64,000 nucleotides of DNA. Origin: Ariolimax columbianus. Its lineage: Eukaryota > Mollusca > Gastropoda > Stylommatophora > Arionidae. The translations under genes and the position numbers were made by a program. Location of the stretch: positions 21,986,293 to 22,050,292 of the forward strand of contig JAVGWX010000019.1 of the NCBI GenBank assembly GCA_036924085.1, read 5' to 3'. Within the stretch, counting starts at the first letter, position 1, and each line of letters starts with the position of its first letter. This document shows, piece after piece, positions 20,951 through 62,823 of the stretch. The notes beneath the pieces were generated by a model that worked only from the letters and a program-made list of their open reading frames with translations, had not been told where the DNA came from and did no database searches.

Positions 20951-20984
20951 ATAGTTTCCTCAGCAGACCGATGAAAACATGGAT

Positions 20985-22890: not shown

Positions 22891-22967
22891 GACCTAAAAC
22901 GCAGTCTCCTTCGTTAACCGTACCGGACTAGAAGCATAGCATCAGTTGATCGATGCAGAAGAAGGTG

Positions 22968-23228
22968 AACAATTATTCTTATTAGAGCGAGAAATGATGT
23001 ACATTGGCGACGAATTATTCTTATTAGAGCGAGAAATGATGTATATTGGCGACGAATTATTCTTATTAGAGCGAGAAATGATGTACATTGGCGACGAATT
23101 ATTCTTATTAGAGCGAGAAATGATGTACATTGGCGACGCATTATTCTTATTAGAGCAAGAAATGATGTACATTGGCGACGAATTATTCGTATTAGAGCGA
23201 GAAATGATGTACATTGGCGACGAATTGC
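22968..23228. repeat. 42-bp minisatellite, about six units
   Basis: Unit GAATTATTCTTATTAGAGCG plus AGAAATGATGTACATTGGCGAC. The units differ by only a few substitutions. The length is divisible by three, so frames stay open on both strands (LFLLEREMMYIGDE repeated on plus). No flanking gene supports real coding. Confidence 0.95.
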
Positions 23229-23239
23229 AATGAGAAATG

Positions 23240-23715
23240 ATGAATGTTGACTTAATGGACCTGTATGTGAACTACAAAAGATAGTGACGCTTAAACAAGA
23301 GACAACATTCCAGATATAGACACTATTTTAAATCGAACGAAAGAAGAACAAGAAGGATGTTGGATAATGATATAAAGTAAAGGTCTTCCATTGCAGAATT
23401 ATCTTGTGTATGAAGTATTAGATACTTCATTTTTTTATGGACTGACCAGTTCTTGTTTCTATTGTCCGTACATACGTGACAATAACTCGAGTTCCAATTT
23501 ACATCAGGGTAGATCAGATCGTGTTGAGGTCAGAGCCTTAAAAAATACTACACACTCTAAATAATAGTATAAACTGGAAATTGTTCAACCTTCAAATAGA
23601 GCCAGGACACATGCTGCTGGTGGATAGGATGATTGGAAGGGTGTTATTATCAGCTGAAGCATATTTCGTCACCAAGAGGCAAACCGGATTAATGCATGTG
23701 TCATTAGTTTTCTGT
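23240..23715. other. Non-coding stretch
   Basis: No gene or repeat recognised. Confidence 0.45.
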
Positions 23716-23724
23716 GACATTTGG

Positions 23725-24086
23725 TTTGGCTGGCTTGTCTTCGTTCGTTCTCAATCTCCCGCTACCAAATCCTGAAATGGCTTATGTAGCAGAATGTAGT
23801 CCAGCGAACGGAATGCGTTGTGTCGTAGTTTATAGCTTGACTGCGATATTTGCACCTTTCGGTCCAACACATCCGACTTCAGCAAGCATTTTTTGATTAC
23901 CGGATAAGAATTCCCTCTTCGATCCCTTCTCCTTAACCAGTCTGCCCTGCTGCATCCTGTTATCCAGGATCACCACGTGGTGGTGTAGAAGGGTCTTGGT
24001 AGCTCTGGTTCGCTGACCCTGACGCTAGCAGTCAGCTATGTGTCGCTGACCACTGCAGCTCGTGCGCTGCTCAGCATCTTGATCCC
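23725..24086 (-). repeat. SINE-like repeat S, copy 1
   Basis: A ~360-bp interspersed element with a consistent length. On the minus strand it begins GGGATCAAGATGCTGAGCAG and ends near GGTAGCGGGAGATTGAGAAC followed by GAACGAAG. Internal landmarks: GAAGTCGGATGTGTTGGACC and AACTACGACACAACGCATTCC. Further copies: 29937-30285, 33768-34118, 34128-34390, 36990-37121 with 43856-44105, and 49875-50345. No clear tRNA promoter boxes; origin unknown. Confidence 0.85.
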
Positions 24087-29710: not shown

Positions 29711-29930
29711 AAATAACACGAAACCGCTAGTTCATCTTCTATAACATCCTGTTTTAAACTGATCGGCAAAATTATATGTACTAAATATGGCTGCAGCAAT
29801 AGTTCAAAGACAAGAATACACTTAGCCAAGCCATATGGAAAGTCGACCAAACGAGAGACAATTAACACTGCTTTATTACGTAGCAAGTGAACATGTTCCG
29901 CATGAGATCTGAACATAACAGATTGGCGTG
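29711..29930. other. Short stretch, nothing recognised
   Basis: No gene; lies between the CR1-like LINE and SINE-like repeat S copy 2. Confidence 0.4.
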
Positions 29931-29936
29931 GCTTCG

Positions 29937-30285
29937 TTCGTTCTCAATCTCCAACTACCAAACCCTGAAAGGGCTTAATTAGCAGAATGTAGTCCAGAGA
30001 ACGGAATGCGTTGTTTCGTAGTTCTACAGCTTGATTGCGATATTTGCACCTTTTGGTCCAACACATCCGACTTCAGCAAGCATTTTTTTGAGTAGTGGGT
30101 TAGCATTCCCTTTTCGATCCCTTCTCCTTGGCCAGTCTGCCTGCTGCAGTCTGTTATCCAGGATCACCACTTGGAAGTGTAGAAGGGTTTTGGCAGCTCT
30201 AGTTTGCTGGCCCTGACGCTAGCAGTCAGCTATGGGTCGCTGACCACTGCAGCTCATGCGCTGCTCAGCATCTTGATCCCATACC
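29937..30285 (-). repeat. SINE-like repeat S, copy 2
   Basis: Same landmarks as copy 1 (the complements of AACGCATTCC, GAAGTCGGATGTG and GGGATCAAGATGC). It ends at ATCTTGATCCC near 30280, immediately next to a LINE C-terminus on the plus strand. Confidence 0.85.
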
Positions 30286-30745: not shown

Positions 30746-30859
30746 GAAAACATCATTATATAAATACCAAATATATATCATTAAATGAATTTAAATGCTA
30801 AACTAAAAATCCTAATGTATTACCTGTTGAAAAGCATAACATAAAAGCAAAAACAAATC

Positions 30860-31235
30860 TTCACAGAATACCAGATAAACTAATATAAGACCAGATAAAC
30901 AGCCTAAAACAAGACCAGATGAATATCACAAAATAATACCAGATAAACATCATAATATAACACCAGATAAACTTCATAATATAATACCGGATAAACATCA
31001 CATTATAATACCAGATAAACGTCACAATATAATACCAGATTGACATCGCAATATAATACCAGATAAGCATCATAACATTATGCCAGATAAACATTATAAT
31101 ACAAGACCAGAAAAAGTCACAATATAATACCAAGTAAATATCATAATATAAGACAAGATACAAATCATAATAATATCATATAAACATCCTAATATAATAA
31201 CAGATAAAAATCATAATATAGTACCAGATAATAAT
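30860..31235. repeat. 24-bp minisatellite, left block
   Basis: About fifteen units of ACCAGATAAACATCATAATATAAT. The period of 24 keeps a spurious frame open on the minus strand with an 8-residue rhythm (FIWYYIVM). The array resumes at 32463. Confidence 0.92.
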
Positions 31236-31239
31236 AATA

Positions 31240-32462
31240 ATAATAAATAATAATGTTCGCTTAGGCGGCTGAGGCCGGTTGCGTCGGTCGGGCACATCCA
31301 TGACAAACAGCTGTCGCGTGGTTTCAGGCCTCGTCCAGGTTGGAGGAGGAGGTTGCTATTTTCTGGAGCCAAATTCTTCCGGGACGGCCTCTTCTGTGTC
31401 TTCAGTCGGTCAGAGGAAGACATTTGGCGCTGAGGAACGACTTGTATAGTATCTTGTGGGCAGGGGTTTCCTTGTCCAACCGTACACCATGACCTAAGAA
31501 AGAAACTCGGCGCTGGACAAGTGTTTCTGAGATTGGGTGGAGCCCTGTTTTAGAAGAGACCTCCTCGTTGTGGATGTAGTTATGCCATCGGATGTCCAGG
31601 ATAGGCCTCTGGTTGCGCAAGTGAAAGTTTTCCAGTCTCGACATGTCATGTTTCAGCAATGTCCCGGTTTCGGACCCGTAAAGCAGGACTGCAACCATGC
31701 AGGACTGGTAGGTGCGACATGTTTTCACAATGGAGATCTTGCCATTACTTCACACACGTTGGAGGTCGTGCAGACGCAGCTAGTATGATCCGCCTTGACA
31801 CAACGGGACCGCTGCGTCCATCGAATGATATCATGCTACAGAGATAGATGAATTTGTTGGTGCTCTCCGCAGTGTGACCTTGAGTTTCAATACCCTGGAG
31901 TGCTGTGTCGGAAAATGAGGTTCTGAACTTTGGTCTTGGCCAAGGATATAGACAGGCCTAGGGAGGGCGTTTCATTGTCTAGCATTTCCAGAGAGCGCTG
32001 CTGGGCAGATATGTCTGTACCGAACAGGGCAATGTCGTCCGCGTAAACGAGATCAGTGAAGATCGACTGAAGGATAGCCATACCCTCGTGATGCGCTCTG
32101 AGGCGGTGAAGAAGCCACTCGACTGCCCGGCAGAATGGGCCGGGGACAAGAACACATCCATGTCTGACATCCGAAGTCGTGGGGAATCTGTCAGAGTGAG
32201 CGCCACCCAATCGAATTCTGGCGCCGGTGTCCTTGAACAGGTTCAAAAGGGCGACCGGGGGGGGGGGGAGGGCTATTCCCTGGAGGGCTTTTCATAAAGC
32301 CGGCGATCGACCGAGTCGAAGACGGACTTCAAGTCCACGTAAGCAGGGTACAAAAGGCGATTGAAGGTACGGTGCAGTTCGGCGAGGAGGCGCGGAGCAA
32401 AGATAGAGTCGGTTTTAGAACGACCCGGGTTGAAGCCAGACTGTTCTGGGCGCCGTTTGTGA
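31240..32462 (-). mobile_element. LINE relic inside the 24-bp minisatellite
   Basis: Minus-strand RT pieces in order: RPEQSGFNPGRS and VDLKSVFDSVDR (motif A, near 32330), SDVRHGCVLVPGPFCRAVEW (motif B, near 32160), LVYADDIALFGTD (motif C, both Asp kept, near 32040), LGLSISLAKTKVQNL (motif D, near 31940), then YQSCMVAVLLYGSETGTLL and RRVSFLGHGVRLDKETPAH (thumb, 31720-31470). The family differs from A and B. Frames shift several times. Array sequence on both sides shows that it inserted into an existing minisatellite. Confidence 0.75.
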
Positions 32463-33005
32463 TCAAGATAAACATTCAAATATAATATCAGATAAGCATC
32501 ATAACATAATAACAGATAAACATCCTGACATAATACCATATAAACATGATAATATAATATCAGATAGCCATCCGATTATAATAACAGATAAATATCTTAA
32601 CAGAATACCAGATAAACATAATATAGTGCCATACAAACATCCTAATATAATATCAGATAAGCATCATAACATTTTAAAAGATAAACAACCTACCATAATA
32701 CCAGATGAACATCATAATATAATACCAGAAATACATCCCAACATAATACCATTAAAAACAATAATATAATACAAGAAAAACATCCGAATATAATAACAGA
32801 TAAATATCTCAACAGAATACCAGATAAACCTTCTAATATAATGCCTACTAAATATCCAAACATAATAACAGTCAAACATCCTAATATAATTCCAGTCAAA
32901 CATTATAATATAATGCCTTATAAGCATCCGAAAATAATAACAGATAAACATTCTAACATAATACCATGTAAACATCCTAATATAAGGCCTACTAAACATC
33001 CCAAT
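32463..33005. repeat. 24-bp minisatellite, right block
   Basis: Continuation of the CCAGATAAACATCxTAATATAAT array beyond the LINE, with more divergence among units. Confidence 0.9.
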
Positions 33006-33200
33006 ACCATATAAACGTCCTAATACGATTAAAATTACCCACCAAATAGTCGAATATAATTCCAGATAAACGTTCTAATACGAGTTAAATGACCCACTTA
33101 ATAGTCGAAAATAATTCCAGATAAACGTCCTAATACGAGTAAAATGACCACTAAATAGTCGAATATAATTCCAGATAAACGTCCTAAAACAATGCTAAAA
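33006..33200. repeat. ~60-66-bp higher-order repeat, three units
   Basis: Units combine TTCCAGATAAACGTCCTAAT, ACGAGTAAAATGACC and CACTAAATAGTCGAATATAA. It appears to be a higher-order derivative of the 24-bp array. Confidence 0.75.
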
Positions 33201-33767: not shown

Positions 33768-34118
33768 CTTCTTCGTTCGTTCTCAATCTCCCACTATCAA
33801 ACTCTGAAAGGGCTTAAGTAGCATAATGTAGTCCAGAGAACGGAATCCGTTGTGTCGTAGTTTACAGTTTGGCTGCGATATTTGCACCTTTCGTTCCAAC
33901 ACATCCGACTTCAGCAAGCATTTTTTGAGTACCGGGTTAGCATTCCCTCTTCAACCCCTTCTCCTTAGCTAGTCTGCCCTGCTGCATCCTGTTATCCGGG
34001 ATCACCGCGTGGAGGTGTAGAAGGGTCTTGGCAGCTATGGTTCGCAGGCCCTGATGCTAGCAGTCAGCTATGGGTCGTTGACCACTACAGCTCATGCGCT
34101 GCTCAGCATCTTGATCCC
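33768..34118 (-). repeat. SINE-like repeat S, copy 3, with GAA tail
   Basis: Full-length copy. Unlike the others it ends in GAA triplets (plus strand TTCTTCTTCTTCGTTCG at about 33760), the same kind of tail as family A LINEs. It forms a head-to-head pair with copy 4. Confidence 0.85.
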
Positions 34119-34127
34119 GGGCACGTG

Positions 34128-34390
34128 TCAAGTAGCTGCCAAAACAATTCTTCCCCTCCACCTGGGGATCCTAGATAACAGGCTGCACCAGGCAGATTTG
34201 CTAAGGGAAAGAGGAAGGTCTAACCCGGTACACATAAATGCTGTGCTGAAGTCGGATTTGTTGAAACGAAGTGTGCAAATATCGCAGCCATGTTGTAAAC
34301 TACGACACAACGCATTCCTTTGTTTCGGACAATATCCTGCTACTTGCATTTTCAGGGCTTGGTAGTGGGAGTTTGAGATCGAACGACGAA
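34128..34390 (+). repeat. SINE-like repeat S, copy 4 (5'-truncated)
   Basis: Opposite orientation to copy 3, 10 bp away, lacking the first ~90 bp of the element. It ends near GGTAGTGGGAGTTTGAGATC, followed by a purine-rich tract. Confidence 0.8.
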
Positions 34391-36989: not shown

Positions 36990-37121
36990 CTTGGCTTCGT
37001 TCATTCTCAATATCCCACTACCAAACACTGAAAAGGCTTAAGTAGCAGAATGTAGTCTACAGAACGGAATGCGTTGTGTCGTAGTTTACAGCTTGACTGC
37101 TACATTTGCACCTTTCGGTCC
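36990..37121 (-). repeat. SINE-like repeat S, copy 5, first part
   Basis: The 3'-end half of repeat S (on its own minus strand), broken at 37121 by the LINE A3/18S insertion. The other half resumes at 43856. The last 31 bases (37091-37121) are repeated there. Confidence 0.85.
37091..37121. repeat. Target-site duplication of the A3/18S insertion, left
   Basis: GCTTGACTGCTACATTTGCA plus CCTTTCGGTCC. The right copy at 43856-43886 differs at three adjacent bases; the last 20 bases are identical. Confidence 0.75.
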
Positions 37122-37375
37122 TTCTTCTTCTTCTTCTTCGTACGCATTCAGACAGTAACCATTATTTTTTCGAAAAAAGCGGCGGTCATCCTGAGGCTGT
37201 CGACACTGCCCTAGAGCTTGTCTTGCAGTTCCACTGGTGATGGCCACATCTGCTCTCTCTGATCCTCGTATGTCGGGCAGTTCTGCCGCAGATGTTCAGC
37301 GGTCATTTTACCGGTACCGCACGGGCATTCGTCAGTACCACCTATCTTCAATTTGTTGAATAGGTGGTATCTCAG

Positions 37376-38452
37376 TCAATTGTGGCCAGTGTGAAGTCTG
37401 AAGACAACGACCTGCTCTCTTCTGTTCAACTGGTAATAGGCATCGTTTTTGGTGTAACCAGTATGTTCGGTTTCCCATTTGGTCATGTATCTGGCTTTGA
37501 TAAGCCGTTTTGACTCTTCGTACGTCATACTAGTATCTGTTTGTGGTAGTTTTGCACCGTCTTTTGCCAGTCTGTCTGCCTCCTCGTTGCCTTTGATGTT
37601 GCAGTGTGATGGGACCCACTGTACCACTACCCTTTTTTGTGCTGACTGCTGGCACAGTTTGCAGAGTGCTGCTCTTAAGTCATTAAGCCTAGTGTTTTTC
37701 TGGCTTTTTAGCGCTGTGACTACGGCGAGAGCATCTGTAAGCAGGACTATATGGCTTTCATTTTCTTTATGCGTCACCATTTCTTCCACTGCCGCCCTCA
37801 GTGCCTCGGCCTCCGCTCTGAAATTGCTTGTATACTTACCAGTAGCGAATGACAGTGTTATTTTTCTGCCATTTGGTAGGTTCAGGAATGCTCCTGCCCC
37901 TCCGTTCTGTGTAGTGTTTGTTACAGAACCGTCGGTGTATGCATGGGTCCAGTCCATGCTTGGGTAGTCTTTCGATATAAAGTTTAGGGTAGTATCTCTC
38001 CTTTCTTTTTCAGTCTGGCAGTTTTTGTTTCCAATACCTGGTATATTTTCTACCACCTCTGGGAATATATCCTGCCTCCAGGTAGGCTTTCGTACAGTAG
38101 TGAGGGGTTTTGGTGTTGTTAGTGCGTTTATGGGATCTTCGTGCATCTTTGCTTTGGCTATTTCTGCAAAGTTTCTCCGCTTTAGTTTCCCATTTCCCAA
38201 ATTGTTTAGTCTCTGGTGCATTGGATGGTTGGTCAGTCTCCGGAGTTTCTCTGACTGCAGCTGGGCTCTGCAGTCTCTTCTATCGGTCATGGATTGCAGT
38301 TTTGTAATCTTTTCGAGTTCTACAAATGGCGTTGACTTCATGCCACCTATTATAACTCTCATGGCTTGGTTTTGAAGTTTCCTAACTTTATCGAAGTTCG
38401 CCTTTGCTGCTGTTGTCCATGCCGCAATGCCAAACTCGAGAACTGGTCTCAC
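37376..38452 (-). CDS. Family A LINE A3: RT thumb and RNase H
   Basis: 358 codons. Residues 1-110 are the connection (VRKLQNQAMRVIIGGMKST). RNase H spans roughly 165-320 with YTDGSVTNTTQNGG, FRAEAEAL, LLTDALAVV and GNEEADRLAKDG, so the D-E-D-D set is complete. It then reads EHTGYTKNDAYYQLNRREQV and stops at a TGA just before the zinc motif, which follows in the same frame. Confidence 0.8.
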   Translation of the reverse strand: MRPVLEFGIAAWTTAAKANFDKVRKLQNQAMRVIIGGMKSTPFVELEKITKLQSMTDRRDCRAQLQSEKLRRLTNHPMHQRLNNLGNGKLKRRNFAEIAKAKMHEDPINALTTPKPLTTVRKPTWRQDIFPEVVENIPGIGNKNCQTEKERRDTTLNFISKDYPSMDWTHAYTDGSVTNTTQNGGAGAFLNLPNGRKITLSFATGKYTSNFRAEAEALRAAVEEMVTHKENESHIVLLTDALAVVTALKSQKNTRLNDLRAALCKLCQQSAQKRVVVQWVPSHCNIKGNEEADRLAKDGAKLPQTDTSMTYEESKRLIKARYMTKWETEHTGYTKNDAYYQLNRREQVVVFRLHTGHN

Positions 38453-40362
38453 TCTTCAAGTGAACAGTTTCTTTAGTATGCTTTCGTCTGCTCCCCAGCT
38501 TGTGCCAGCAAGTTTCCTTATGATTGCCATTCTTTCTCTGGCTCTCATTCTGTATCTCTCGATCTGACTTTTCCATGTCATGCGCCGATCAAATGTGACT
38601 CCCAGATAGTTTGGGTTGTCGTTTGGCTACATGAATTTGCCATTTAAACTTAACTTGGTATTTTGGGGTTTTATGGAAAGCGAGAATATTGTGCATGTGG
38701 TTTTCTCCTCGTTTATTTTGACCAGCCATGAGTTCGTCCACTCTTCCAGCGATGTTAGGGCCGTCTGCATCCGATTTCTTGCTATGGTGAGATTCTTTTC
38801 AGAGGTCCACATAGCCAGATCGTCTGCAAACATTGAGCTATGGACTCTTCTTGGTATAGTCTCTGTGATGTCGTTTATATACACCAGCAAGAGTGTGGGT
38901 GACAGTACTCCCCCTTGTGGTACTCCCTGCTCGAGTGTCACCTTTATGCTCATTTGCCCTTGTACTTGGACTCTGGCCGTTCTGTTTTTGAGGTAGTGGT
39001 TGATCCACTTGTACATTTTCCCACAAACATCACTTCTTCTTAGCTTGACTCTTAAGTCCATCTTTCCAGACTTTGTCAAATGCCCTTTCCGGGTCCACAG
39101 AAACCGCTACTGTGTGTTTCTGTGCCTGGTAGGCATCTTCTATTTCCTGGGCTATGAGGATGACCTGCTCTTCAGTGGATCTGTGCTGTCTAAAGCCGGC
39201 TTGCTGTGGAATTAGTATTCGTTTTTCTTCTACATGCCACATCAGTCTGGTGTTTATCATCCGTTCCATCAGCTTGCCGACACAGCTCAGTAGGCTGATA
39301 GGCCTGTATCCATTTGGATCTGTTTTGTCCTTTCTTTTTTTTGGTACTGGTACCAGTACTGCGTCTTTCCATGCCTGGGGTACAATTCCCCTTTTCCAGC
39401 TCTGGTTCAGGACCGATAGCAGCTTCCTCTTCGCCGTTTGGCCCAGCCCCATCAGCATTTCGTTTGTTATCCCATCTTTTCCGGGAGATTTCCTTTTCTT
39501 AAATGTTCTCATAGCCTCTTTCATTTCGCTCATTGTTAGTTTGGCCATCATGTGCTCTTCAGGAGCCGTACTGATGCCCCTTTTGCTCTTCACTAATGTC
39601 TGTATGCCTATCTGCAGTGACCTCGATGTGGTTTGCTCTGGCATATTGATCGACAAGAGCGTTTGCAGCTTTTTTACCAGTGAGCATTTTTTCACCCTGT
39701 TGGATGGTAATTTGTTTGTTTGACGGGGTTTCGCAATTCATGGCTCTGACTAGCTTCCATAGCTTGTTCCCTTCTTTGTCCAGGTTTAGGCTTTCCGTTT
39801 TGTTTTTCCAGCTCTCTCTTGCTGTTTGCTTGAGAGTGTATTTGTACTTCGCCGTGGCGGCTTCGAGGGCGATGTTTGCCTCCATAGATTGTTCTCGTTC
39901 TGCCATGTACCTAGCATGTGTTACTGCATCTTCCGCTTTCTGCAACTCATCATTCCAATAGGGCTTATAGTTTTTCCTAGCCCCTCTTGGGATGGTTTCA
40001 GTGGCGGCTTGCATTATTGCCTTGTTTAGGCTTTCCACCATGGGCTTCATTTTGTTGTTTCGTGTGTTTATGGTTTCACACAGCCCGTCTATCAGGATTG
40101 CAAATCTGTTCCAGTCGGCTCGTTTGTAATTCCAACGTGGGAGCGGTTTTGTTTCCTGTGGGCCTATCTCCATATCAATGTCTAGCCTGATCGGCCTGTG
40201 GTCGCTACCTGCCAGTTGCTTTAGCACCTGGCGGTCTATTTTATGGTGTATGTCCTGCGTGGAGAATGCCAAATCTGGAGTCGAGGTGGTATGCCATGTT
40301 CTAGAATAGAAACTAGGGCTATCATATGGCCTATTGATTAGAGATAGATTTGTATCTATCTC

Positions 40363-41049
40363 CTAATCTTCCACTTCGTCACCTCTGCTGTTTGTGTCAG
40401 AGTATCCCCATCTCTGCGAGTGGCTGTTGAAATATCCAACTACTATGCAGTTGGAGTCTCTGACCTCCATACTCGAGAGCGATAGGTCTCTATTTGGTGG
40501 TCCGTACAGATTGAAAATGCGGAGCTTCGTCTCTTGGGCCATTATGTCAACTCCTACAATTTCTGCTTGTCCGGTGTGACTGACAGGTACCGCGCTACTC
40601 GGTATGCAGTTTCTGGTCAGTATCAGGACCCCTCCTTTGTGACCTTCTCTATCCAGACGGAAGGTCTGGTATCCTCTGATTGAGAATTTATGATTGTTGT
40701 TGAGGTGCGTTTCCTGGATACATGCCACGTCAATCTTACCTTCATGCAGGTGATGTGTTAGGGAAAGTTTTTTGTTAATGACTCCCTCCGCATTCCACTG
40801 TAGTATTTTGAGGGTCTTGAGGTTTTGGTCAATGGAAGTTTCCCCATAGCCATGTGCCTTGACTCCACAATACATGGGTGGGTGACCACCAGTAGTCAAG
40901 GGTGGGCCCCTTCGAGGCGTGAGGCCCGGCACTCTCGCTACCTGGCGGGACTCTGCAGGATGAGCGCCATACCTTTTTCTGATAGGTTGTACTGTCATCA
41001 TTCTGCGATTTACGTTGCACTGTTTTGTTAGGCTTGTGGCCCAGTGCAT
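40363..41049 (-). CDS. Family A LINE A3: AP-like endonuclease, N-half
   Basis: 228 codons, including ~75 residues upstream of the nuclease core that hold a basic, Pro-rich stretch (MTVQPIRKRYG). Core motifs: ILQWNAEGV, IQETHL, GGVLILTRN, IFNLYGPPNRD and VVGYFNSHS (Tyr replaces Asp). It ends at TAG where A4 has Trp (EVEDWEID); the same frame then continues to 39559 with GSDHRPI (active-site His). The first Met here is a plausible original ORF start, since sequence upstream is closed by stops in both A3 and A4. Confidence 0.75.
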   Translation of the reverse strand: MHWATSLTKQCNVNRRMMTVQPIRKRYGAHPAESRQVARVPGLTPRRGPPLTTGGHPPMYCGVKAHGYGETSIDQNLKTLKILQWNAEGVINKKLSLTHHLHEGKIDVACIQETHLNNNHKFSIRGYQTFRLDREGHKGGVLILTRNCIPSSAVPVSHTGQAEIVGVDIMAQETKLRIFNLYGPPNRDLSLSSMEVRDSNCIVVGYFNSHSQRWGYSDTNSRGDEVED

Positions 41050-42028
41050 CCGATTTCAACAGGCGTTTCTGTTGGGAGGCCCTCCTTAGCCTTTGGCTGT
41101 CCACAGCCTATCTGCAAGGCAGCAGTTGTTTGTGGTCAGAGTTTTCTCTCTTATGGAAGTTGTCTTACAAGACTGACGAGTCTTCCCTTCTCGTGTCTAT
41201 AGGCTGCGGTATTGATATATGAGATGTAATATATGATATATGATATGGACTATGTACTGGTTTGCACTAACCCGGAAGAGAGGCAGTCTAGTGTGTCTGT
41301 ATCCCAGGATTGTCATGTCCTGCCAGAAATGTATCATGTGCATGTGGGCGGGGTACCTCTTTGCTCCCTTTATTTTCTCGTCATACCTTTAGTGATGGTA
41401 CGCCTAGCATTCCCCGCCACCTAGGAGGTTGACACAGTAGGCCAGATGTGTAATGTCCGCTAGTCTGCTTCTCTTCTGCGTCCATTGGTATGGCTGATAG
41501 CGTACAGAGGTAGAGATCGAGGCAGGAGTGCATTTAACCAGGGGACAAGCCTGGTAATGTCACGGAGATGTTGTTCGCCTAGTGTGCGGACAGATCTCAT
41601 GGTCATTGGTTGAGTCTCGACAGTTCACAGTGAGGTGGCTGCTCTACTGTTCTCGACACCCCGATCAGGAACTAAGTCTTATGTTGGTGGTTTCGCACCC
41701 CATCGCCGTATAAGGTGAGTATCAAGCAGCTGTCCGCCCGCTTTGATCGGCGGACGGCAGAGACCTCTTTCTGCGGCTCTACCGGATAGGGCTGGGGCGC
41801 GAGCCCCAGGTCCCGAACATGTAGGAGCCTCCCATTGCAGTGGTGCTGAGATTTTGGGCGGGATTCCGGCTTACAGGGGTTCGGCCGTAATCCCTCACAT
41901 GGTAGCCTCGCGCCATTGGCTTATCAGCCTGGTACGTGAACCAAAGTGTCTGCGGCTCCTCTCGATATGAGCTGGATTTTCGTAGCAACGCCCTGTCATT
42001 TGTAGGGTAAAACTGACCTGTCTTCAGA

Positions 42029-42421
42029 TGGTCTATTTCCAGCACCCGTTCAATATTTGACCAGACGAATTAATTGAGGGCTTCTGTTTGTCAATGACCA
42101 TGTATTTGAAATCTGCGGATTCTTCGGGGTTAAACACGATTTCCGTAGCGTTCTTTCATTAGAATGTTAGAGAGCTAACTTGTCTTCCGTGAGTCTAACA
42201 CCAGCGTAAGTTCGTTATTAGACCCAACGGTAGTGCTCTCGATTTGTCAGTCGTTCTACAGTATTGGCGTGTTCAGTCAAATTGAGCCGCAGGTTCCACT
42301 CATGGTGGTGCCCTTCCGTCAATTCCTTTAGCGAACACTAGATGCGAGACAATCAAGTTACCGAGAGGATAGCCTCAGATTTTCGAGGGTCTAATTCCAG
42401 CACCCGTTCCATATTAGACCC
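42029..42421 (-). promoter_or_regulatory. Family A leader: three stem-loop units, A3 copy
   Basis: Three related stem-loops on the minus strand at 42421-42387, 42226-42191 and 42063-42029. The first has a perfect 9-bp stem, GGGTCTAAT with ATTAGACCC, around a loop holding GAACGGGTGCTGG. The second keeps pairing through a G-T (G-U in RNA) position, and the third keeps about five pairs with the same loop. Units 1 and 2 are ~195 bp apart and each is preceded by an 18S-derived block. The role is inferred: promoter monomer or RNA structure. Confidence 0.6.
42269..42330 (-). rRNA. Second 18S rRNA-derived block in the A3 leader (62 bp)
   Basis: Minus strand TAAAGGAATTGACGGAAGGG continues through CACCACCATGAGTGGAACCT to TTTGACTGAACACG, the universally conserved 18S region around the GGAATTGACGG box. 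Sequence upstream (GATGCGAGAC-type) is not 18S, so this is an isolated block, a tandem repeat of the end of the long 18S segment. Confidence 0.85.
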
Positions 42422-42424
42422 AAC

Positions 42425-43709
42425 GAAAGTGCTCTCGGCATGTCAATCATGTCAGTGTTTGGCCGTGTTGAGTCAAATTAAGCCGCAGGCTCCACTCCTT
42501 GTGGTGCCCTTCTGTCAATTCCTTTAAGTTTCAGCTTTGCAACCATACTTCCCCCGGAACCCAAACACTTTGGTTTCCCGGAAGCTGCCCGCAGAGTCAT
42601 CGAAGCAACTCCTGCGGATCGCTAGTCGGCATCGTTTATGGTCAGAACTACGACGGTATCTGATCGTCTTCGCGCCTCTGACTTTCGTTCTTGATTAATG
42701 AAATTATTCTTGACAAATGCTTTCGCAGTAGCTCGTCTTGCGGCGATCCAAGAATTTCACCTCTAACGCCGCAATACGAATGCCCCCGTTTGTCCCTGTT
42801 AATCATTACCTCCAATTCCGAAAACCAACAAAATAGAACCGAGGTCCTATTCCCTTATTCCATGCACCATTATTCAGGCAGCCGAGGCCTGCTTTGAACA
42901 CTCTAATTTTTTCAAAGTAAACGCGCCGGCAATCCAGGACGCTCAGCGAAGAGCACCCGTGGGAGAGCGCCGGCAGACGGTAAGGCAGGAGACAACGGGC
43001 AGTGAACCGGCGCGAGTCGGACTGCCCGCCTGCGCCTGAGATCCAACTACGAGCTTTTTAACTGCAACAACTTTTAAATACGCTATTGGAGCTGGAATTA
43101 CCGCGGCTGCTGGCACCAGACTTGCCCTCCAATAGATCCTCGTTAAAGGGTTTAAAGTGTACTCATTCCAATTACGGGGCCTCGAAAGAGTCCCGTATTG
43201 TTATTTTTCGTCACTACCTCCCCATGCCGGGAGTGGGTAATTTGCGCGCCTGCTGCCTTCCTTGGATGTGGTAGCCGTTTCTCATGCTCCCTCTCCGGAA
43301 TCGAACCCTGATTCCCCGTTACCCGTTACAAACATGGTAGGCATGTCACATACCACTGATATATATATATCGATAGGGCAGACATTTGAAAGATGCGTCG
43401 CCGGCACATGAGGCAATGCGATCAGCACAAATTTATCCAGAGTCACCAGTGGGGACGCCGCAACCCCGCGAGGGGAAACGACGATTGGTTTTGAACTAAT
43501 AAAAGCGCTCTTTCCCCGAGGGTCGGAGCTTGGTAAGCATGTATTAGCTCTAGAATTGCCACAGTTATCCAAGTAGGATCTTGTCATCTAAGGAACCTCG
43601 ACTGATTTAATGAGCCATTCGCGGTTTCACCGTGAGACAGTGTAAACTTAGACATGCATGGCTTAATCTTTGAGACAAGCATATGACTACTGACAGGATC
43701 AACCAGATA
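42425..43709 (-). rRNA. 18S rRNA, 5' two-thirds (partial, pseudogene)
   Basis: Minus strand begins TATCTGGTTGATCCTGTCAG (18S 5' end) at 43709. It runs collinearly through GTGCCAGCAGCCGCGGTAAT (near 43115), the V4 region, GAGGTGAAATTCTTGGATCG (near 42760), AAAGTCAGAGG and GGAATTGACAGAAGG, to GACTCAACACGG at about 42464. A weaker resemblance (GATTGACA...GAGAGC-CTTTC) continues to about 42425, with ~15 bases missing. The last third is absent. Substitutions at normally invariant sites and an extra TATATATATA near 43362 show that it is not a working rRNA. It joins directly into the LINE A3 leader. Confidence 0.92.
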
Positions 43710-43855
43710 TCTGTCGGAGACGTACGTACAGCACACACCGGTCGGCAGAGGAAGGGTGTGTAAAAAGCCTCACTGGGACGGCTGCAGGGACCGACTGACG
43801 GGACGGACGGACGGTTGTTCCACCCGTCCCTCACTCCGTCGACCTAGCACCGCCT
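43710..43855 (-). other. Putative 5' external transcribed spacer remnant
   Basis: GC-rich non-coding sequence directly upstream of the 18S 5' end and inside the target-site duplications, so it belongs to the inserted block. Position and composition suggest pre-rRNA 5' ETS. No reference was available to confirm. Confidence 0.55.
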
Positions 43856-44105
43856 GCTTGACTACGACATTTGCACCTTTCGGTCCAACACATCCGACTT
43901 CAGCAAGCATTTTTTGAGTACCGGGTTAGCATTCCCTCTTCAACCCCTTCTCCTTAGCAGTCTTCCCTGCTGCAGCCTGTTGTCCAGGATTACCGCGTGG
44001 TGTAGAAGGGTCTTGGCAGCTTTGGTTTGCTGGCCCTGACACTAGCAGTCAGCTATGAGTTGCAGACCACTGCAGCTCATGCGCTGCTCAGCATCTCGAT
44101 TCCAG
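43856..44105 (-). repeat. SINE-like repeat S, copy 5, second part
   Basis: Resumes repeat S exactly where it stopped at 37121, after repeating the 31-bp target-site duplication (43856-43886). It ends near GCTCAGCATCTCGAT, the outer end of the element. Confidence 0.85.
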
Positions 44106-49285: not shown

Positions 49286-49870
49286 TACCGGATCTTTGTC
49301 GTTGCTACGAATTTGGAGAATTGTGTTGAGATTATCAAAAAATATGGAGAGCAGAGCTTTAGGGTCAAACCATGTGGAATTTAGTTGATTCTTCGACTAA
49401 ACCACAACTAACAACTTTACATATATTTTTTTCAATGGAACGTCACGTATGAGTGAATTTAAATACCTCTATAATTGACTGGTTACGAAACCAAAATGTT
49501 TGTGTTATTTGACTGGGTATAACAAAACTTGATGTCATTATAATGCATTTTGTCAAATAAATTACATTGGTATGGTCGTTTCATTTCATTTTGCATTCAA
49601 TCCCGAATCGTCTGGTACATAATATAACAATAACACCTTACTGAAGTTAAATAGATTTAAAGTAAGCAATACTGTGATGGAGCGTTGCAACACACAATGG
49701 AACGGAACGCTAAAGTGAGGGGAAGGTGAGACGTCATCGTCACCTTCCTGGCATCATTCTGTGGCATACCAATCAACCAGATCAATCTCTATGATTGTGA
49801 TCCTTCTAGGAAGCATCGAGTTTAACTACAACTAAGATCCACTTTCTTCAGTGCGCCGTGCATTAACTGC
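49286..49870. other. Stretch without a recognisable gene
   Basis: Contains GTTGATTCTTCGACTAAAC (49383), the same 19 bases seen at the 3' truncation of LINE A2. No coding signal. Confidence 0.4.
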
Positions 49871-49874
49871 AACG

Positions 49875-50345
49875 TCCAGTAACCCAAAGCTGACTACTAG
49901 CATTCAGGCCAGCGACACAGAGCTGCCAAGACCCTTCTACACCTCCCTGTGGTGTTCATGGATAACAGGCTTCAACAGGGCATACTAGCTAAGGAGAAAG
50001 GATAGAAGAAGGAAAACTAACCCGATACCCAAAAAATGCCATCATAAGTCCGGAAGTGTCAGACCAAAAAGTACAAATATCGTAGTCAAACTGTAAACGA
50101 CACAACGCATTCAGTGCTTCTGACAACATTCTGCAACTTTCAAAGAGAAGGGATCGAAGAGGGAATGCTAACCCGGTATTAAAAAAATGATTGCTGAAGT
50201 CGGATGTGTTGGACCGAAATCACAAATATCGCAGTTAAGATGTAAACTACAACACAACGTATTTCGTTCTCTGGACTATATTCTGCTACTTATGTCCATG
50301 TCAGGGTGTGGTAGAGGGAGATTGAGAACGAAAAAAGCCAAGCCA
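49875..50345 (+). repeat. SINE-like repeat S, copies 6 and 7 in tandem
   Basis: Two partial copies in the same orientation: about 49900-50140 and 50145-50345. The second starts mid-element at GAGAAGGGATCGAAGAGGGA and ends GGGAGATTGAGAACGAAAAA then GCCAAGCCAAGCC. A tandem dimer. Confidence 0.75.
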
Positions 50346-50504
50346 AGCCAATCTTAAGTAAATTTTGAAATATAAAATCGTGATCACCTAGCATTTTATT
50401 TCGTTCCCTTTGCTTTCTGAAGTGGAATAGGTTGTACTGTTTTGTGCCATACGATCCAATTTATCCATATTCACTTCAAATTTTGCAATCGGTTTTATTC
50501 CCAT

Positions 50505-57371: not shown

Positions 57372-57495
57372 GAGCGTCTCTCAATGTTTGTCTCTTTAGT
57401 TTTGGAGAATCTCTGCACATGCACGAACTCCATAGCAGCGGCAATGATCCCGTTTTTATTCGTGTTTTGTGCCGTATACACTATACAGTGCGTCT
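57372..57495. repeat. ~124-bp target-site duplication of LINE A4, left
   Basis: GAGCGTCTCTCAATGTTTGT through CTATACAGTGCGTCT. The right copy at 62699-62823 differs at roughly eight positions. Confidence 0.88.
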
Positions 57496-57652
57496 TCTTC
57501 TTCTTCTTCTTACGCAGTCAGACAGTAACCATTATTTTTTCGAAAAAAGCGGCGGTCATCCTGAGGCTGACGACACTGCCATAGAGCTTGTCTTGTGGTT
57601 CCACTGATGATGGCCACATCTGCTCTCTCTGATCCTCGTATGTCTGGCACTT

Positions 57653-58327
57653 CTACAGCAGATGTTCAGCGGTCATTTTCCCGGTACCACACGGGCATTC
57701 GTCGGTTCCCCCTATCTTCAATTTGTTGAATAGGTGGTACCTCAGTCTATTGTGGCCAGTGCGAAGTCTGAAGACAACGACCTGCTCTCTTCTGTTCAAC
57801 TGGTAATAGGCATCGTTTTTGGTGTAGCCGCTATGTTCAGTTTCCCATTTGGTCATGTATCTGGCTTTGATAAGCCGTTTTGACTCTTCGTACGTCATAC
57901 TAGTATATGTTTGTGGTAGTCTTGCACCTTCTTTTGCAAGTCTGTCTGCCTCCTCGTTGCCTTGGATGTTGCAGTGTGATGGGACCCACTGTACCACTAC
58001 CCTTTTTGGTGCGGACTGCTGGCATAGTTGACAGAGTGCTGCTCTTAAGTCATTAAGCTCAGTGTTTTTCTGGCTTTTTAGTGCTGTGACTACGTCGAGA
58101 GCATCTGTAAGCAGGACTGAATGGCTTTCATTTTCTTTATGTGTCACCATTTCTTGCACTGCCGCCCTCAGTGCCTCTGCCTCCGCTCTGAAATTGCTTG
58201 TGTACTTACCAGTAGCGAATGACAGTGTTATTTTTCTGCCATTTGGTAGGTTCAGGAATGCTCCTGCCCCTCCGTTCTGTGTAGTGTTTGTTACAGAACC
58301 GTCGGTGTATGCATGAGTCCAGTCCAT
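57653..58327 (-). CDS. Family A LINE A4: RNase H and zinc terminus
   Basis: 224 codons from MDWTHAYTDGSVTN (first Asp) through FRAEAEAL, LLTDALDVV and GNEEADRLAKEG to the intact pre-terminal block LNRREQVVVFRLRTGHNRLR and C-P-C-G-x6-AEHLL. It stops one residue into the QNCP part. The best preserved example of the RNase H to zinc junction in the window. Confidence 0.82.
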   Translation of the reverse strand: MDWTHAYTDGSVTNTTQNGGAGAFLNLPNGRKITLSFATGKYTSNFRAEAEALRAAVQEMVTHKENESHSVLLTDALDVVTALKSQKNTELNDLRAALCQLCQQSAPKRVVVQWVPSHCNIQGNEEADRLAKEGARLPQTYTSMTYEESKRLIKARYMTKWETEHSGYTKNDAYYQLNRREQVVVFRLRTGHNRLRYHLFNKLKIGGTDECPCGTGKMTAEHLL

Positions 58328-58387
58328 GCTAGGGTAGTTTTTCGATATAAAGCTTAGGGTAGTATCTCTCCTTTCTTTTTCAGTCTT

Positions 58388-59254
58388 TCAGTTTTTGTTT
58401 CTAATACCTGGTATATTTTCTACCACCTCTGAAAATATATCCTGCCTCCAGGTAGGTTTTCGAACAGTAGTGATGGGCTTTGGTGTTATTAGTGCGTTTA
58501 TGGGATCTTCGTGCATCTTTGCTTTGGTTATTTCTGCAAAGTTTCTCCGCTTTAGTTTCCCATTTCCCAAATTGTTTAGTCTCTGGTGCATTGGATGGTC
58601 AGTCAGTCTTCGGAGTTTCTCTGACTGCAGCTGGGCTCTGCAGTCTCTTCTATCGGTCATGGATTGCACTTTTGTAATCTTTTCAAGTTCTACAATTGGC
58701 GTTGACTTCATGCCTCCTGTTATAACTATCATGGCTTGGTTTTGAAGTTTGCTAACTTTATCGAAGTTCGCCTTTGCTGCTGTTGTCCATGCCGCAATGC
58801 CATACTCGAGAACTGGTCTCACTCTTCCAGTGTACAGTTTCTTTAGTATGTATTCGTCTGCTCCCCAGAATGTGCCAGCAAGTTTCCTCATGATTGACAT
58901 TCTTTCTCTCGCTCTCATTCGGTTTCTCTCGATCTGACTTGTCCATGTCATGCGCCGATCAAATGTGACTCCCAGATAGCTTGGGTAGTCGTTTGGCTGC
59001 AGGAATTTGCCATTTAAAATTAATTTGGTATTTTGGGGTTTGATTGAAAGCGGGAATATTGTACATGTGGTTTTCTCCTCGTTTATTTTGACCAGCCATG
59101 AGTTTGCCCACTCTTCCAGCGATGTTAGGGCCTGCTGCATCCGATTTCTTGCTATGGTGAGATTCTTTTCAGAGGTCCACATAGCCAGATCGTCTGCAAA
59201 CATTGAGCTATGGACTCTTCTTGGTATATTCTCTGTAATGTCGTTTATATACAC
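58388..59254 (-). CDS. Family A LINE A4: RT motif C to connection
   Basis: 288 codons: YINDITENIPRRVHSSMFAD then DLAMW (intact catalytic pair), LVKINEEKTTCTIF (motif D), YLGVTFDRRMTW, YTGRVRPVLEYGIAAW, and MKSTPIVELEKITKVQSMTD. It ends at a stop before RNase H, which continues in the same domain order at 58327. Confidence 0.8.
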   Translation of the reverse strand: MYINDITENIPRRVHSSMFADDLAMWTSEKNLTIARNRMQQALTSLEEWANSWLVKINEEKTTCTIFPLSIKPQNTKLILNGKFLQPNDYPSYLGVTFDRRMTWTSQIERNRMRARERMSIMRKLAGTFWGADEYILKKLYTGRVRPVLEYGIAAWTTAAKANFDKVSKLQNQAMIVITGGMKSTPIVELEKITKVQSMTDRRDCRAQLQSEKLRRLTDHPMHQRLNNLGNGKLKRRNFAEITKAKMHEDPINALITPKPITTVRKPTWRQDIFSEVVENIPGIRNKN

Positions 59255-59409
59255 CAGAAAGAGTGTGGGTGACAGTACTCCCCCTTTGGGTACTTCCTAC
59301 TCGAGTGTCACCTTTTTTGCTCATCTGCCCTTGTACTTGGACTCTGGCGTTCTTTGTTTGAGGTAGTGGTTGATCCACTTGTACAATCTCCCACAATCTT
59401 CACTTCTCC

Positions 59410-59826
59410 TTAGCTTACTCTAAGTCCGTCTTTCCAGACTTTGTCAAATGCCTTTTCCAGGTCCACCCAAACCGCTACTGTGTGTTTCTGTGACTGGTAG
59501 GCATGTTCTATTTCCTGGGCTATGAGGATGACCTGGTCCTCAGTGGATCTGTGCTGTCTAAAGCCTGCTTGCTGTGGAATTAGTATTCGTTTTTCTTCCA
59601 GATGCCACATCAGTCTGGTGTTTATCATACGTTCCATCAGTTTGCCGACACAGCTCAGTAGACTGATAGGCCTGTATCCATTTGGATCTGTTTTTTCCTT
59701 TCCTCTCTTTGGTACTGGTACAAGTACTGCGTCTTTCCATTCCTGAGGTACAATTCCCCTTTTCCAGCTTTTTTTCAGGACCGACAGCAGTTTTCTCTTC
59801 GCTCTTTGGCCCAGCCCCATCAGCAT
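59410..59826 (-). CDS. Family A LINE A4: RT fingers and motif A
   Basis: 138 codons: LLSVLKKSWKRGIVPQEWKD, AVLVPVPKRG, NGYRPISLLSCVGKLMERMI, QQAGFRQHRSTEDQVI, and motif A WVDLEKAFDKVW. It stops at a frameshift before RLRRSDVCG. Confidence 0.75.
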   Translation of the reverse strand: MLMGLGQRAKRKLLSVLKKSWKRGIVPQEWKDAVLVPVPKRGKEKTDPNGYRPISLLSCVGKLMERMINTRLMWHLEEKRILIPQQAGFRQHRSTEDQVILIAQEIEHAYQSQKHTVAVWVDLEKAFDKVWKDGLRVS

Positions 59827-60156
59827 TTCGTTTGTTATCCCGTTTTTTTCCGGGAGATTTCCTTTTCTTTAATGTTCTCATGGCCTCTTCCATTTCACTC
59901 ATTGTTAATTTGGCCATCATATGCTCTTCTGGTGCCGTATTGATGTTGTCGTGCCCCTTTTGCTCTTCACTAATGTCTGAATGCCTATCTCCAGGGACCT
60001 CGATGTGGTTTGCTCTGGCATAGTTTTCGACAAAAGCGTTTGCGGCTTTCTTACCTGTGAGCAAGTGTTCGCCCTGCTTGATGGTAATTTGTTTGTTTGA
60101 CAGGGTTTCGTCGTTCATGGCTCAGACTAGCTTCCATAGCTTGTTCCCTTCTTTGT

Positions 60157-60846
60157 CTAGGTTGAGACTTTCAGTTTTGTTTTCCAGCTCTCTCTTGCTG
60201 TTTGGTTAAGGGTGTATTTGTATTTCGCCGTGGCGGCTTTGAGGGCGATATTTGCCTCCATAGATTGTTCTCGCTCTGCCATGTTCCTAGCATTTGTGAC
60301 TGCGTCTTCCGCTTTCTGCAACTCATCATTCCAATAGGACTTATAGTTTTTCCTAATTCCTCTTGGGATGGTTTCAGTGGCGGCTTGCATTATTGCCTTG
60401 CTTAGGCTTTCCACCATGGGCTTCATTTTGTTGTTTCGTGTGTTGATGGTTTCACACAGCCCATCTGTCAGGATTGCAAATCTGTCTCTATCGGCGCATT
60501 GGTAATTCCAACGTGGGAGCGGGTTTGTTTCCCGTGGGCCTACTTCCATATCAATGTCTAGCCTGATCGGCCTGTGGTCGCTACCTGCCAGTTGGTTTAG
60601 CACCTGGCGGTCTATTTTATGGTGTATGTCCTGTGTGGAGAAGGCCAAATCTGGAGTCGAGGTGGTATGCCATGTTCTAGAATAGAAACTAGGGCTATCC
60701 TCCGGCCTATTGATTAGGGAGAGATTTGTGTCTATCTCCCAATCTTCCACTTCGTCACCTCTGCTGTCTGTGTCCGAGTATCCCCATCTCTCCGAGTGGC
60801 TGTTGAAGTCTCCAACTACTATGCAGTTGGAGTCTTTGACTTCCAT
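60157..60846 (-). CDS. Family A LINE A4: endonuclease C-half and linker
   Basis: 229 codons: CIVVGDFNSHSERWGY (intact GDFN), GDEVEDWEIDTNLSLINRPE (Trp retained where A1 and A3 have stops), TPDLAF, and GSDHRPIRLDID (catalytic Asp-His), then the linker. The only uninterrupted catalytic C-half of the endonuclease in the window. Confidence 0.8.
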   Translation of the reverse strand: MEVKDSNCIVVGDFNSHSERWGYSDTDSRGDEVEDWEIDTNLSLINRPEDSPSFYSRTWHTTSTPDLAFSTQDIHHKIDRQVLNQLAGSDHRPIRLDIDMEVGPRETNPLPRWNYQCADRDRFAILTDGLCETINTRNNKMKPMVESLSKAIMQAATETIPRGIRKNYKSYWNDELQKAEDAVTNARNMAEREQSMEANIALKAATAKYKYTLNQTARESWKTKLKVST

Positions 60847-62360
60847 ACTCGAGAGCTTTATTTGGTGGTACGTACAGATTGAAAATGCGGAGCTTCGTCT
60901 CTTGGGCCATTATGTCAACTCCTACAATTTCTGCTTGTCCGGTGTGATTGACAGATACCGCACTACTCGGTATGCAGTTTTGGGTCAGTATCAGGACCCC
61001 TCCTTTGTGACCTTCTCTATCGAGAGGGAAGGTCTGGTATCATCTGATTGAGAATTTATGATTATTGTTGAGGTGCGTTTCCTTGATACATGCCACGTCA
61101 ATCTTACCTTCATGCAGGTTATGCGTTAGGGGAAGCTTTTTGTTAATGACTCCCTCCGCATTCCACTGTAGTATTTTGAGGGTCTTGAGATTTTGGTCAA
61201 TAGAAATGGCCCCATAGCCATGTGCCTTGACTTTACAACACATGGGTGGGTGACCACCAGTAGTCAAGGGTGGGCCCCTTCGAGGCGTGAGTCCCGGCAC
61301 TCTCGCTGCCTGGCGGGACTCCGCAGGATGATCGCCATATGTTTTTCTGATCGGTTGTACTGTCATCATACTGCGATTTACGTTGCACTTTTTCGTTAGA
61401 TTTGTGGCCCCGTGCATCCGATTTCAACAGGCGTTTCTGTAGGGATGCCCTCCTTAGCCCTTGGCTGTCCCCAGCCTATTTGCAAGGCAGCAGTTGTTTT
61501 GGATCAGAGTTGTCTCTCTTATGGAAGTTGTCTTACCAGACTAACGAGTCTTCACTACTCGTGTCTATAGGGTGCGGTGATGATATATGATATGGACTGG
61601 TTTAACCGGAAGAGAGGCAGTCCAGTGTGTCTGTATCCCAGGATCGTCACGTCCTGCCAGAACGTAGAATTTGCATGTGAGTGGGGTATCTCTTTGCTCC
61701 CTTTATTTTCTTGGCTTCTATGCAGGGATGGTACGCCTAGCATTCCCCGCCACCTGGGATGTTGACACAGTGGGGCAGGTGTGCAATGTCCGCTGGTCTG
61801 CATCTCTTCTGCGTCCATTGGTATCGCTGATAGCGTACAGAGGTAGAGATGGAAGCAGAAGTGCATTTAACCAGGGGACAAGCCTGGTAATGTCACGGAG
61901 ATGTTGTTCGCCTGGTTTGCGGGCATATCTCGTGGTCAAGGAATGAGTCTCGACAGTTCACAGTGAGGTGGCTGGTCTACTGTTTTCGACACACTGACCA
62001 AGAACTAAGTCTTATGTTGGTGGTTTCGCACCCCATCGCCATATAGGGTGAGTATCGAGCAGCTATCCGCCCGCCTTGATCAGCGGATGGAAGAGACCTC
62101 TTTCTGTGGCTTGACCTGGTAGGGTTGAGGCGCGATCCCCAGATCCCGACTATATCGAAGCCTCCCATTGCAATGGTGCTGAGATTTTGGGCGGGATTCC
62201 GGCTTACAGGCGTCCGGCTGTAATCCCTCACATGGTAGCCTCGCGCCATTGGCTTATCAGCCTGGTACGTGAACCAAAATGTCTGCCGCTCCTCTCGAGT
62301 TAGCAGGATTTCCGTAGCAACGTCCTGTCATTTGTAGGGTAAAACTGACCTGTCTTCTGA

Positions 62361-62560
62361 TGGTCTATTTCCAGCACCCGTTCACTATTTGGCCAGGACG
62401 AATTAAACGAGGGTTTTTGTTTGTCAGTTACCACGTATCAGGAACCTGCGGTTTCTGCGGGGTTGAGACACGATTTCCGTAGCGTTCTTTCATTTGAAGG
62501 TTAGAGAGTTGACCTGTCTTCCGTGGGTCTAATACAAGCACACGTTCACTATTAGACCCA
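62361..62560 (-). promoter_or_regulatory. Family A leader: stem-loop units, A4 copy
   Basis: TGGGTCTAAT with ATTAGACCCA at 62560-62524 (perfect 10-bp stem), and a second related loop (GAACGGGTGCTGG) at 62395-62361. Same order and spacing as in A3. Function inferred only. Confidence 0.6.
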
Positions 62561-62600
62561 ACGAAAGTGCTCTCGATTTGTCAGTCGTTCTACAGTATTT

Positions 62601-62664
62601 GCGTGTTGAGTCAATTTAAGCCGCAGGCTCCACTCGTGGTAGTGCTCTTCCGTCAATTCCTTTA
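62601..62664 (-). rRNA. 18S rRNA-derived block in the A4 leader (64 bp)
   Basis: TAAAGGAATTGACGGAAGAG through GAGTGGAGCCTGCGGCTTAA to GACTCAACACGC. Flanking sequence on the far side (CATTCAGTGTTTGA) is not 18S, as in the inner block of A3. Isolated from any rDNA. Confidence 0.85.
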
Positions 62665-62698
62665 TCAAACACTGAATGCAGACCAACCGAGCCACAGA

Positions 62699-62823
62699 GA
62701 GCGTCTCTCAATGTTTTTCTCTTTATTTTTGGAGAATCTCAGCACATGTACGAACTCCATAGCAAACGGCAATGATCCCGTTTCTATTCGCGTTTTGTGC
62801 CGTATACACTATACAGTGCGTCT
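62699..62823. repeat. ~125-bp target-site duplication of LINE A4, right
   Basis: Partner of 57372-57495. It continues past CAGTGCGTCT into GAAAATGATTCGCC, the original flank. Confidence 0.88.

Follow-up and report, generated by a model that had tools for sequence, protein, structure and literature searches.

A LINE inserted together with 18S rRNA and its upstream spacer, and the rRNA-derived leader at their join

In the window (the whole stretch of DNA analyzed, 64,000 nt), one LINE copy, referred to below as copy A, continues at its 5' end into 18S rRNA, which raises the question of how a LINE outside rDNA came to carry it, and from what template. The initial annotation had offered two routes, a read-through transcript of an rDNA unit with the LINE in its 18S gene, or a jump of the reverse transcriptase (RT) from the LINE's own 18S block to homologous pre-rRNA.

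The inserted unit and its target

LINE, rRNA and spacer form a single 6.7-kb unit in positions 37122-43855 of the minus strand, bounded by a 31-bp TSD whose copies are identical in 29 of 31 positions (93.5%). Read in the LINE sense (from 43855 to 37122), the unit consists of a 146-bp spacer, 18S, a partial leader monomer, the LINE leader, the coding region and (GAA)6. The target and the other copies of the host repeat are:

37091..37121, no strand: left TSD, on the LINE 3' side (31 bp, 29/31 identical to 43856-43886; six empty paralogues)
43856..43886, no strand: right TSD, on the LINE 5' side (pairs with 37091-37121)
23731..24086, no strand: host repeat copy, empty (flank alignment)
29923..30281, no strand: host repeat copy, empty (flank alignment)
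33771..34118, no strand: host repeat copy, empty (flank alignment)
34134..34386, minus strand: host repeat copy, empty, more diverged (flank alignment)
49852..50346, minus strand: two more host repeat copies, empty, diverged (flank alignment)

Once the unit is deleted together with one copy of the TSD, all six of the other host-repeat copies that were aligned run through the insertion point of the joined flanks without a gap. The diverged copies, in 34134-34386 and 49852-50346, lie in the opposite orientation, all without an insert at the site. Comparison of the two TSD copies, which differ in 2 of 31 positions, with the six paralogues assigns one change to each side, the right-hand one being also present in one diverged paralogue (1/6).

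Given the empty host-repeat copies and the TSD, LINE, 18S and spacer therefore arrived jointly, and the insertion stops where the spacer stops. This supports a single retrotransposition, outside rDNA, of a unit made up of LINE, leader, 18S and spacer. The initial annotation had described one block of minus-strand LINE with a GAA tail, leader, about 1.25 kb of 18S and spacer, interrupting a repeat and flanked by a 31-bp direct repeat, and is confirmed here. A chance origin is excluded by the match scores. Outside the elements, no rRNA match was obtained in the window at Rfam gathering scores.

The LINE and its leader

The features of the LINE part of copy A, and the complete sister copy used for comparison, are:

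37122..37139, minus strand: (GAA)6 tail of copy A (sequence)
37376..41055, minus strand: coding region of copy A, broken, with endonuclease, reverse transcriptase and RNase H (Pfam and alignment to copies B and D)
41056..41589, minus strand: 5' untranslated stretch, from the 28S-derived part to the coding region (stop-free frames)
41590..42069, minus strand: degenerate 28S 3' end in the leader of A (Rfam LSU_rRNA_eukarya)
41949..42067, minus strand: leader monomer A1b, 28S-type, without a recognisable 18S block (self-alignment to 42112-42229, 63%)
42185..42330, minus strand: leader monomer A1a, an 18S block (42268-42329) with degenerate 18S and 28S fused to it (78% to 42381-42526; also in C)
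42364..42367, minus strand: position matching the 5' end of copy C (the A/C alignment stops at 42367 = 62701; the right TSD of C starts from 62699)
57496..62698, minus strand: sister LINE copy C, complete, with an rRNA leader and without captured 18S (TSD 57372-57495 / 62699-62823; Rfam LSU)

Six further copies in the window align to parts of the LINE of copy A, namely B over 3.8 kb, C at full length, D over 2.1 kb, and E, F and G over short stretches. The identity of A is 93.6% to D, 93.1% to B and, for 37123-42367, 91% to C. GAA repeats also end copies B, C, E, F and, weakly, G, and the alignment of D stops short of the 3' end. The 3' end of copy B (11467) coincides with the outer end of an inverted duplication (6329-8506 / 9285-11473, 99% identical, arms of about 2.2 kb with 778 nt between them), which is either a recent duplication or a fold-back assembly artefact.

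The Pfam domain Exo_endo_phos (APE-type) is found in 40363-41055 of copy A and also in copy C, while RVT_1 and RNase_H are found in homologous frames of B and D, the copies scanned for these domains. The restriction-like endonuclease of R2-type LINEs was not seen, Exo_endo_phos being present in A and C instead. The APE endonuclease (A, C) together with RT and RNase H (B, D) make up the domain set of the I/Nimb group, of which this LINE is a candidate member. ORF1 is not evident in the scanned leader regions, where the longest stop-free frame has 96 aa in A and 116 aa in C, both copies being broken. Elsewhere in the window an RT-like open frame is overlapped by the tandem array 20964-21431, one of three arrays (30849-33038, 22922-23257, 20964-21431; units 24, 42 and 78 bp).

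Among the best 120 of 757 protein relatives of the LINE, 14 carry an organism name, namely 13 gastropods (Littorina, Batillaria, Elysia and Bradybaena are among those listed) and one bivalve-symbiont record, so that the host is likely molluscan or related. The protein scan of genome contigs gave two distant loci with 29% identity. Viral contigs yielded no relative in the protein scan and 0 stretches with the DNA patterns (LINE leader; 18S V4 region).

Copy C, bounded by a TSD of about 125 bp (57372-57495 / 62699-62823, 93.6% over 125 columns) as compared with 31 bp in copy A, lies in other sequence than the dispersed repeat that holds A, and neither occupies a fixed rDNA site. An rDNA-specific element in the strict definition (R1, R2, R7, R8 type) is rejected, as A is located in a dispersed repeat and C in other sequence. 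The 5' end of A is about 1.49 kb longer than that of C. Per 250-nt step, A and C differ by 9.6-15.6% in the leader (41118-42367) and by 4.4-11.2% in the coding region; the faster divergence of the leader perhaps reflects constraint on the coding region in source elements.

The initial annotation had noticed an 18S block of the LINE in the leader and missed that the leader is an old mosaic of 18S and 28S. In copies A and C alike, the leader is made up of repeated units of an ancient and degenerate 18S::28S chimera, and it reaches the 3' end of 28S. In particular, the degenerate 28S in 41590-42069 covers the peptidyl-transferase region, the sarcin-ricin loop and the 3' terminus. The LSU_rRNA_eukarya model matches the leader of A with 74.4 bits (model positions 3005-3399 of 3401), with 83.2 bits and up to position 3401 when it is taken alone, and with 49.8 bits, slightly below the gathering score, when A is searched in a wider stretch. 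In the leader of C the score is 67.5 bits (to model position 3399 of 3401), and 91.4 bits for the leader alone.

There are three monomers in A (42381-42526, 42185-42330, 41949-42067) and two in C, the innermost ones, A1b and Cb, having no recognisable 18S block. In the monomers upstream of the LSU match, the peptidyl-transferase region of 28S is fused to a piece of 18S, from about 1146 to 1261, in which the same 15 nt are missing, the extent of 28S in A1a and Ca being taken from their likeness to A1b and Cb and not from an Rfam match of their own. By Rfam, the 18S piece scores 17.5 bits in C (gathering score 50), and in the leader of A the SSU model finds nothing up to E 1, but over its first 62 nt the piece clearly matches the captured 18S. 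Against the Rfam consensus, the leader 28S mismatches at 21 of 109 strongly conserved positions in A and 18 of 109 in C (16.5-19.3%), counted over model positions from about 2940 to 3146 only, with the 28S 3' end outside the count. The leader most likely arose via earlier captures of 28S and 18S. The mouse L1 5' UTR is likewise built of tandem monomers, also variable in number, while the monomers of the LINE considered here are derived from rRNA.

The captured 18S and the join

Toward its 5' end the unit continues as follows:

42381..42463, minus strand: partial leader monomer A2, 3' of the join with 18S (degenerate 18S with the 15-nt deletion, then a 28S hairpin)
42464..42525, minus strand: 62-nt block homologous in 18S and the LINE leader, holding the join (2/62 mismatches to the Rfam consensus)
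42464..43709, minus strand: captured 18S, position 1 to about 1207 (Rfam SSU_rRNA_eukarya)
43710..43855, minus strand: spacer, 146 bp, presumed 5' external transcribed spacer (from its location next to the 18S 5' end only)

The captured rRNA lies at the 5' end of the LINE in the same sense, and has the natural 5' end of 18S with the upstream spacer contiguous to it. SSU_rRNA_eukarya matches 42555-43706 with 899.6 bits; position 1 of 18S corresponds to 43709, and the sequence is canonical as far as about 42464 (model position about 1207). The spacer, previously estimated at about 145 bp, thus measures 146 bp from 18S position 1; it is absent from the empty paralogues, and has no other significant copy in the window. 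The annotation had further held that pre-rRNA including its ETS was retrotransposed: the joint insertion stands, given the TSD and the empty sites, while the spacer is presumably the ETS, by its position directly 5' of 18S only.

At strongly conserved positions, the captured 18S mismatches in 11 of 445 (2.5%, CI 1.2-4.4), a count which covers 445 of the 1009 Rfam positions compared, omits the greater part of V4 and a second variable stretch, and may contain true species differences. The less conserved positions mismatch in 177 of 564, a figure that is uninformative on age unless compared with the 18S of the species itself. Over 2043 columns of the LINE coding region, 54 substitutions (2.64%) are private to A in comparison with B, C and D. 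The TSD rates were computed from 31 columns in copy A and 125 columns in copy C. Since the 18S mismatch, the A-private rate and the TSD difference concur, 18S was canonical at or shortly before insertion, and so is about as young as the insertion itself. It is younger than the leader 28S of A (Fisher p 5e-9), while in comparison with the leader block of A1a (4/54) the difference in age is not significant (p 0.068).

The earlier statement that 18S ends where the leader begins is correct and incomplete. Where 18S ends, the leader segment in turn resembles degenerate 18S that continues into 28S, and the join is therefore collinear. In a blastn comparison with copy C, the captured 18S has one significant match, of 63 nt (90.5%, E 2e-20; the next has E 0.8), between 1181-1243 of the 1247 captured bases taken, that is, the 3' edge at the join, and positions 38-100 of C.

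Distances within this block are 4/62 between canonical 18S and A1a, 4/62 between canonical 18S and Ca, and 7/62 between A1a and Ca, while 3' of the block the corresponding values are 15/39, 13/39 and 3/39. Canonical 18S lies near the A/C root inside the block, not just downstream. By these two sets of distances, the block was near-canonical in the A/C ancestor, next to sequence that had already degenerated; this suggests either that it had been captured or refreshed at that position before, or that it was under constraint. In the 39 positions 3' of the block, A2 differs from A1a in 15, from Ca in 14 and from canonical 18S in 13; as these positions are equidistant, the origin of A2 from the LINE rests on the 15-nt deletion, the 28S fusion and the overall identity of 78-83%.

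Origin of the chimera and related systems

The location of the join in a homologous collinear block favors a homology-guided switch to pre-rRNA during target-primed reverse transcription, and we consider this the probable origin of copy A. A LINE of the endonuclease-RT-RNase H type would have entered a dispersed repeat through target-primed reverse transcription; its RT would have copied the LINE RNA from the GAA tail toward the 5' end until it reached the leader block of about 62 nt homologous to 18S, and there would have switched to the matching place in precursor rRNA. From that point it would have continued through 18S as far as the 18S 5' end and about 146 nt of the sequence upstream, after which the 5' end would have been attached. 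We infer the switch between RNA templates during the insertion of A from the collinear join. Of the two routes named in the initial annotation, a jump from the 18S block in the leader gives the better fit, since the join is collinear with the sole significant match to C (63 nt), and read-through fits less well.

Several observations weigh against a homology-guided switch. It is the single chimera of the kind known here, and its source may be a DNA copy that already bore ETS-18S. Moreover, the downstream positions of A2 are as far from the leader monomers as from canonical 18S, the 18S piece of the leader is weak by Rfam, and the excess in age of block A1a over the captured 18S is not significant, as given above. 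The RT of R2 is reportedly known for end-to-end jumps. Neither the L1 nor the R2 precedents are presented as homology-guided in the relevant parts of their descriptions (PMC13174262, PMC3414825).

The main rival, a source resident in rDNA, seems less likely. Here a LINE inside an 18S gene, placed there by insertion or by recombination via the 18S block, would have been retrotransposed as an ETS-18S-LINE co-transcript from the rRNA promoter. The same order and orientation of parts is predicted, concerted evolution in rDNA would also keep 18S canonical (2.5%), and R2 is co-transcribed with 28S, according to part of PMC3414825. Recombination with rDNA mediated by the leader block would even yield a collinear join, but plain insertion into 18S does not predict one that coincides with internal homology of the leader. 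In addition, A and C, both complete, have no flanking rRNA at Rfam gathering scores, and C is complete without captured 18S.

It is improbable that the whole family once had ETS-18S::28S at its 5' end, lost later from C and others. The 15-nt deletion and the 28S fusion are indeed common to A2 and the leader monomers of A and C, but the divergence of 18S 1-1145 is far below that of the leader 28S (11/445 against 21/109 and 18/109) and is about that expected from the age of copy A itself. A full ancestral ETS-18S leader is rejected on this ground. Still less credible is ligation of LINE RNA to a pre-rRNA fragment before reverse transcription, which is among the mechanisms proposed for L1 chimeras (PMC13174262, in part) and would not be expected to place the join within a block of collinear homology, or later gene conversion at the DNA level, which would not place the spacer end exactly at the TSD. 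Finally, though rDNA is prone to misassembly, an assembly chimera can be dismissed, as a chimeric join would not create a 31-bp TSD that matches empty paralogues exactly at the ends of the unit.

Copy A has one TSD round the joined unit, foreign RNA 5' in the same sense, and the LINE 3' end with its tail, as chimeric LINE-ncRNA retroinsertions do. It is a larger variant of these known chimeras, unusual in comprising 18S with upstream spacer, in its size of about 1.4 kb, and in the join via homology in an rRNA-derived leader. 28S-derived SINEs, such as SINE28, also contain a part that comes from rRNA, while the element here is a LINE, which has a coding region of its own and whose leader is composed of 18S::28S monomers.

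SINEs incorporating 28S rRNA are mentioned in PMC13174262, whose main text, where 18S does not occur as a term, also describes human L1 chimeras with 28S rRNA (n=18, 50-482 nt, 83% sense) and with U6, U3 and 5S, with TSDs reported. As in copy A, the non-LINE RNA is at the LINE 5' end, mostly in sense orientation for 28S, U3 and U6, and the events are single; in contrast to these 28S pieces, copy A carries about 1.25 kb of 18S with upstream spacer, joined via a homologous leader block. In Drosophila, R2 has been lengthened by 170 bp, 80 bp and 18 nt through template jumps to U12 snRNA and tRNA (PMC3414825, in vivo jumps section); as proposed for copy A, the LINE 5' end is extended by an RT jump to another RNA, and the captured piece may join a subfamily. 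Unlike the LINE of copy A, R2 is rDNA-specific, and that section contains no homology-based rRNA capture. Tailless rRNA retrocopies made by L1, with TSDs described for tailless retropseudogenes (PMC2912911, in part), are also rRNA that was reverse transcribed and inserted, but are not joined to a LINE. Titles and abstract beginnings among the literature matches listed contain no chimera of 18S or pre-rRNA with a LINE and no LINE leader of 18S::28S monomers, and a survey of gastropod LINEs (PMC11203168) has rRNA once and 18S never in its main text.

The older rRNA pieces of the leader may help the LINE to acquire more rRNA. We tentatively regard it as possible that this family captures rRNA repeatedly, the leader acting as a homology landing pad for switches to the abundant pre-rRNA and being renewed or lengthened successively. 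The order would then be the 28S 3' end, the 18S::28S monomers, a refresh of the 18S block and finally ETS-18S in copy A; were this so, rRNA leaders could provide promoter, nucleolar or translation functions that replace ORF1-linked 5' sequence. If the homology-guided origin of copy A is true, template switching by LINE RTs could be guided by homology of the leader to the RNA that is most abundant in the cell, and rRNA could serve as material for LINE 5' ends. Copy A would then represent a natural test system for copy-choice in target-primed reverse transcription, as well as a route for the spread of rDNA fragments and for new LINE 5' ends.
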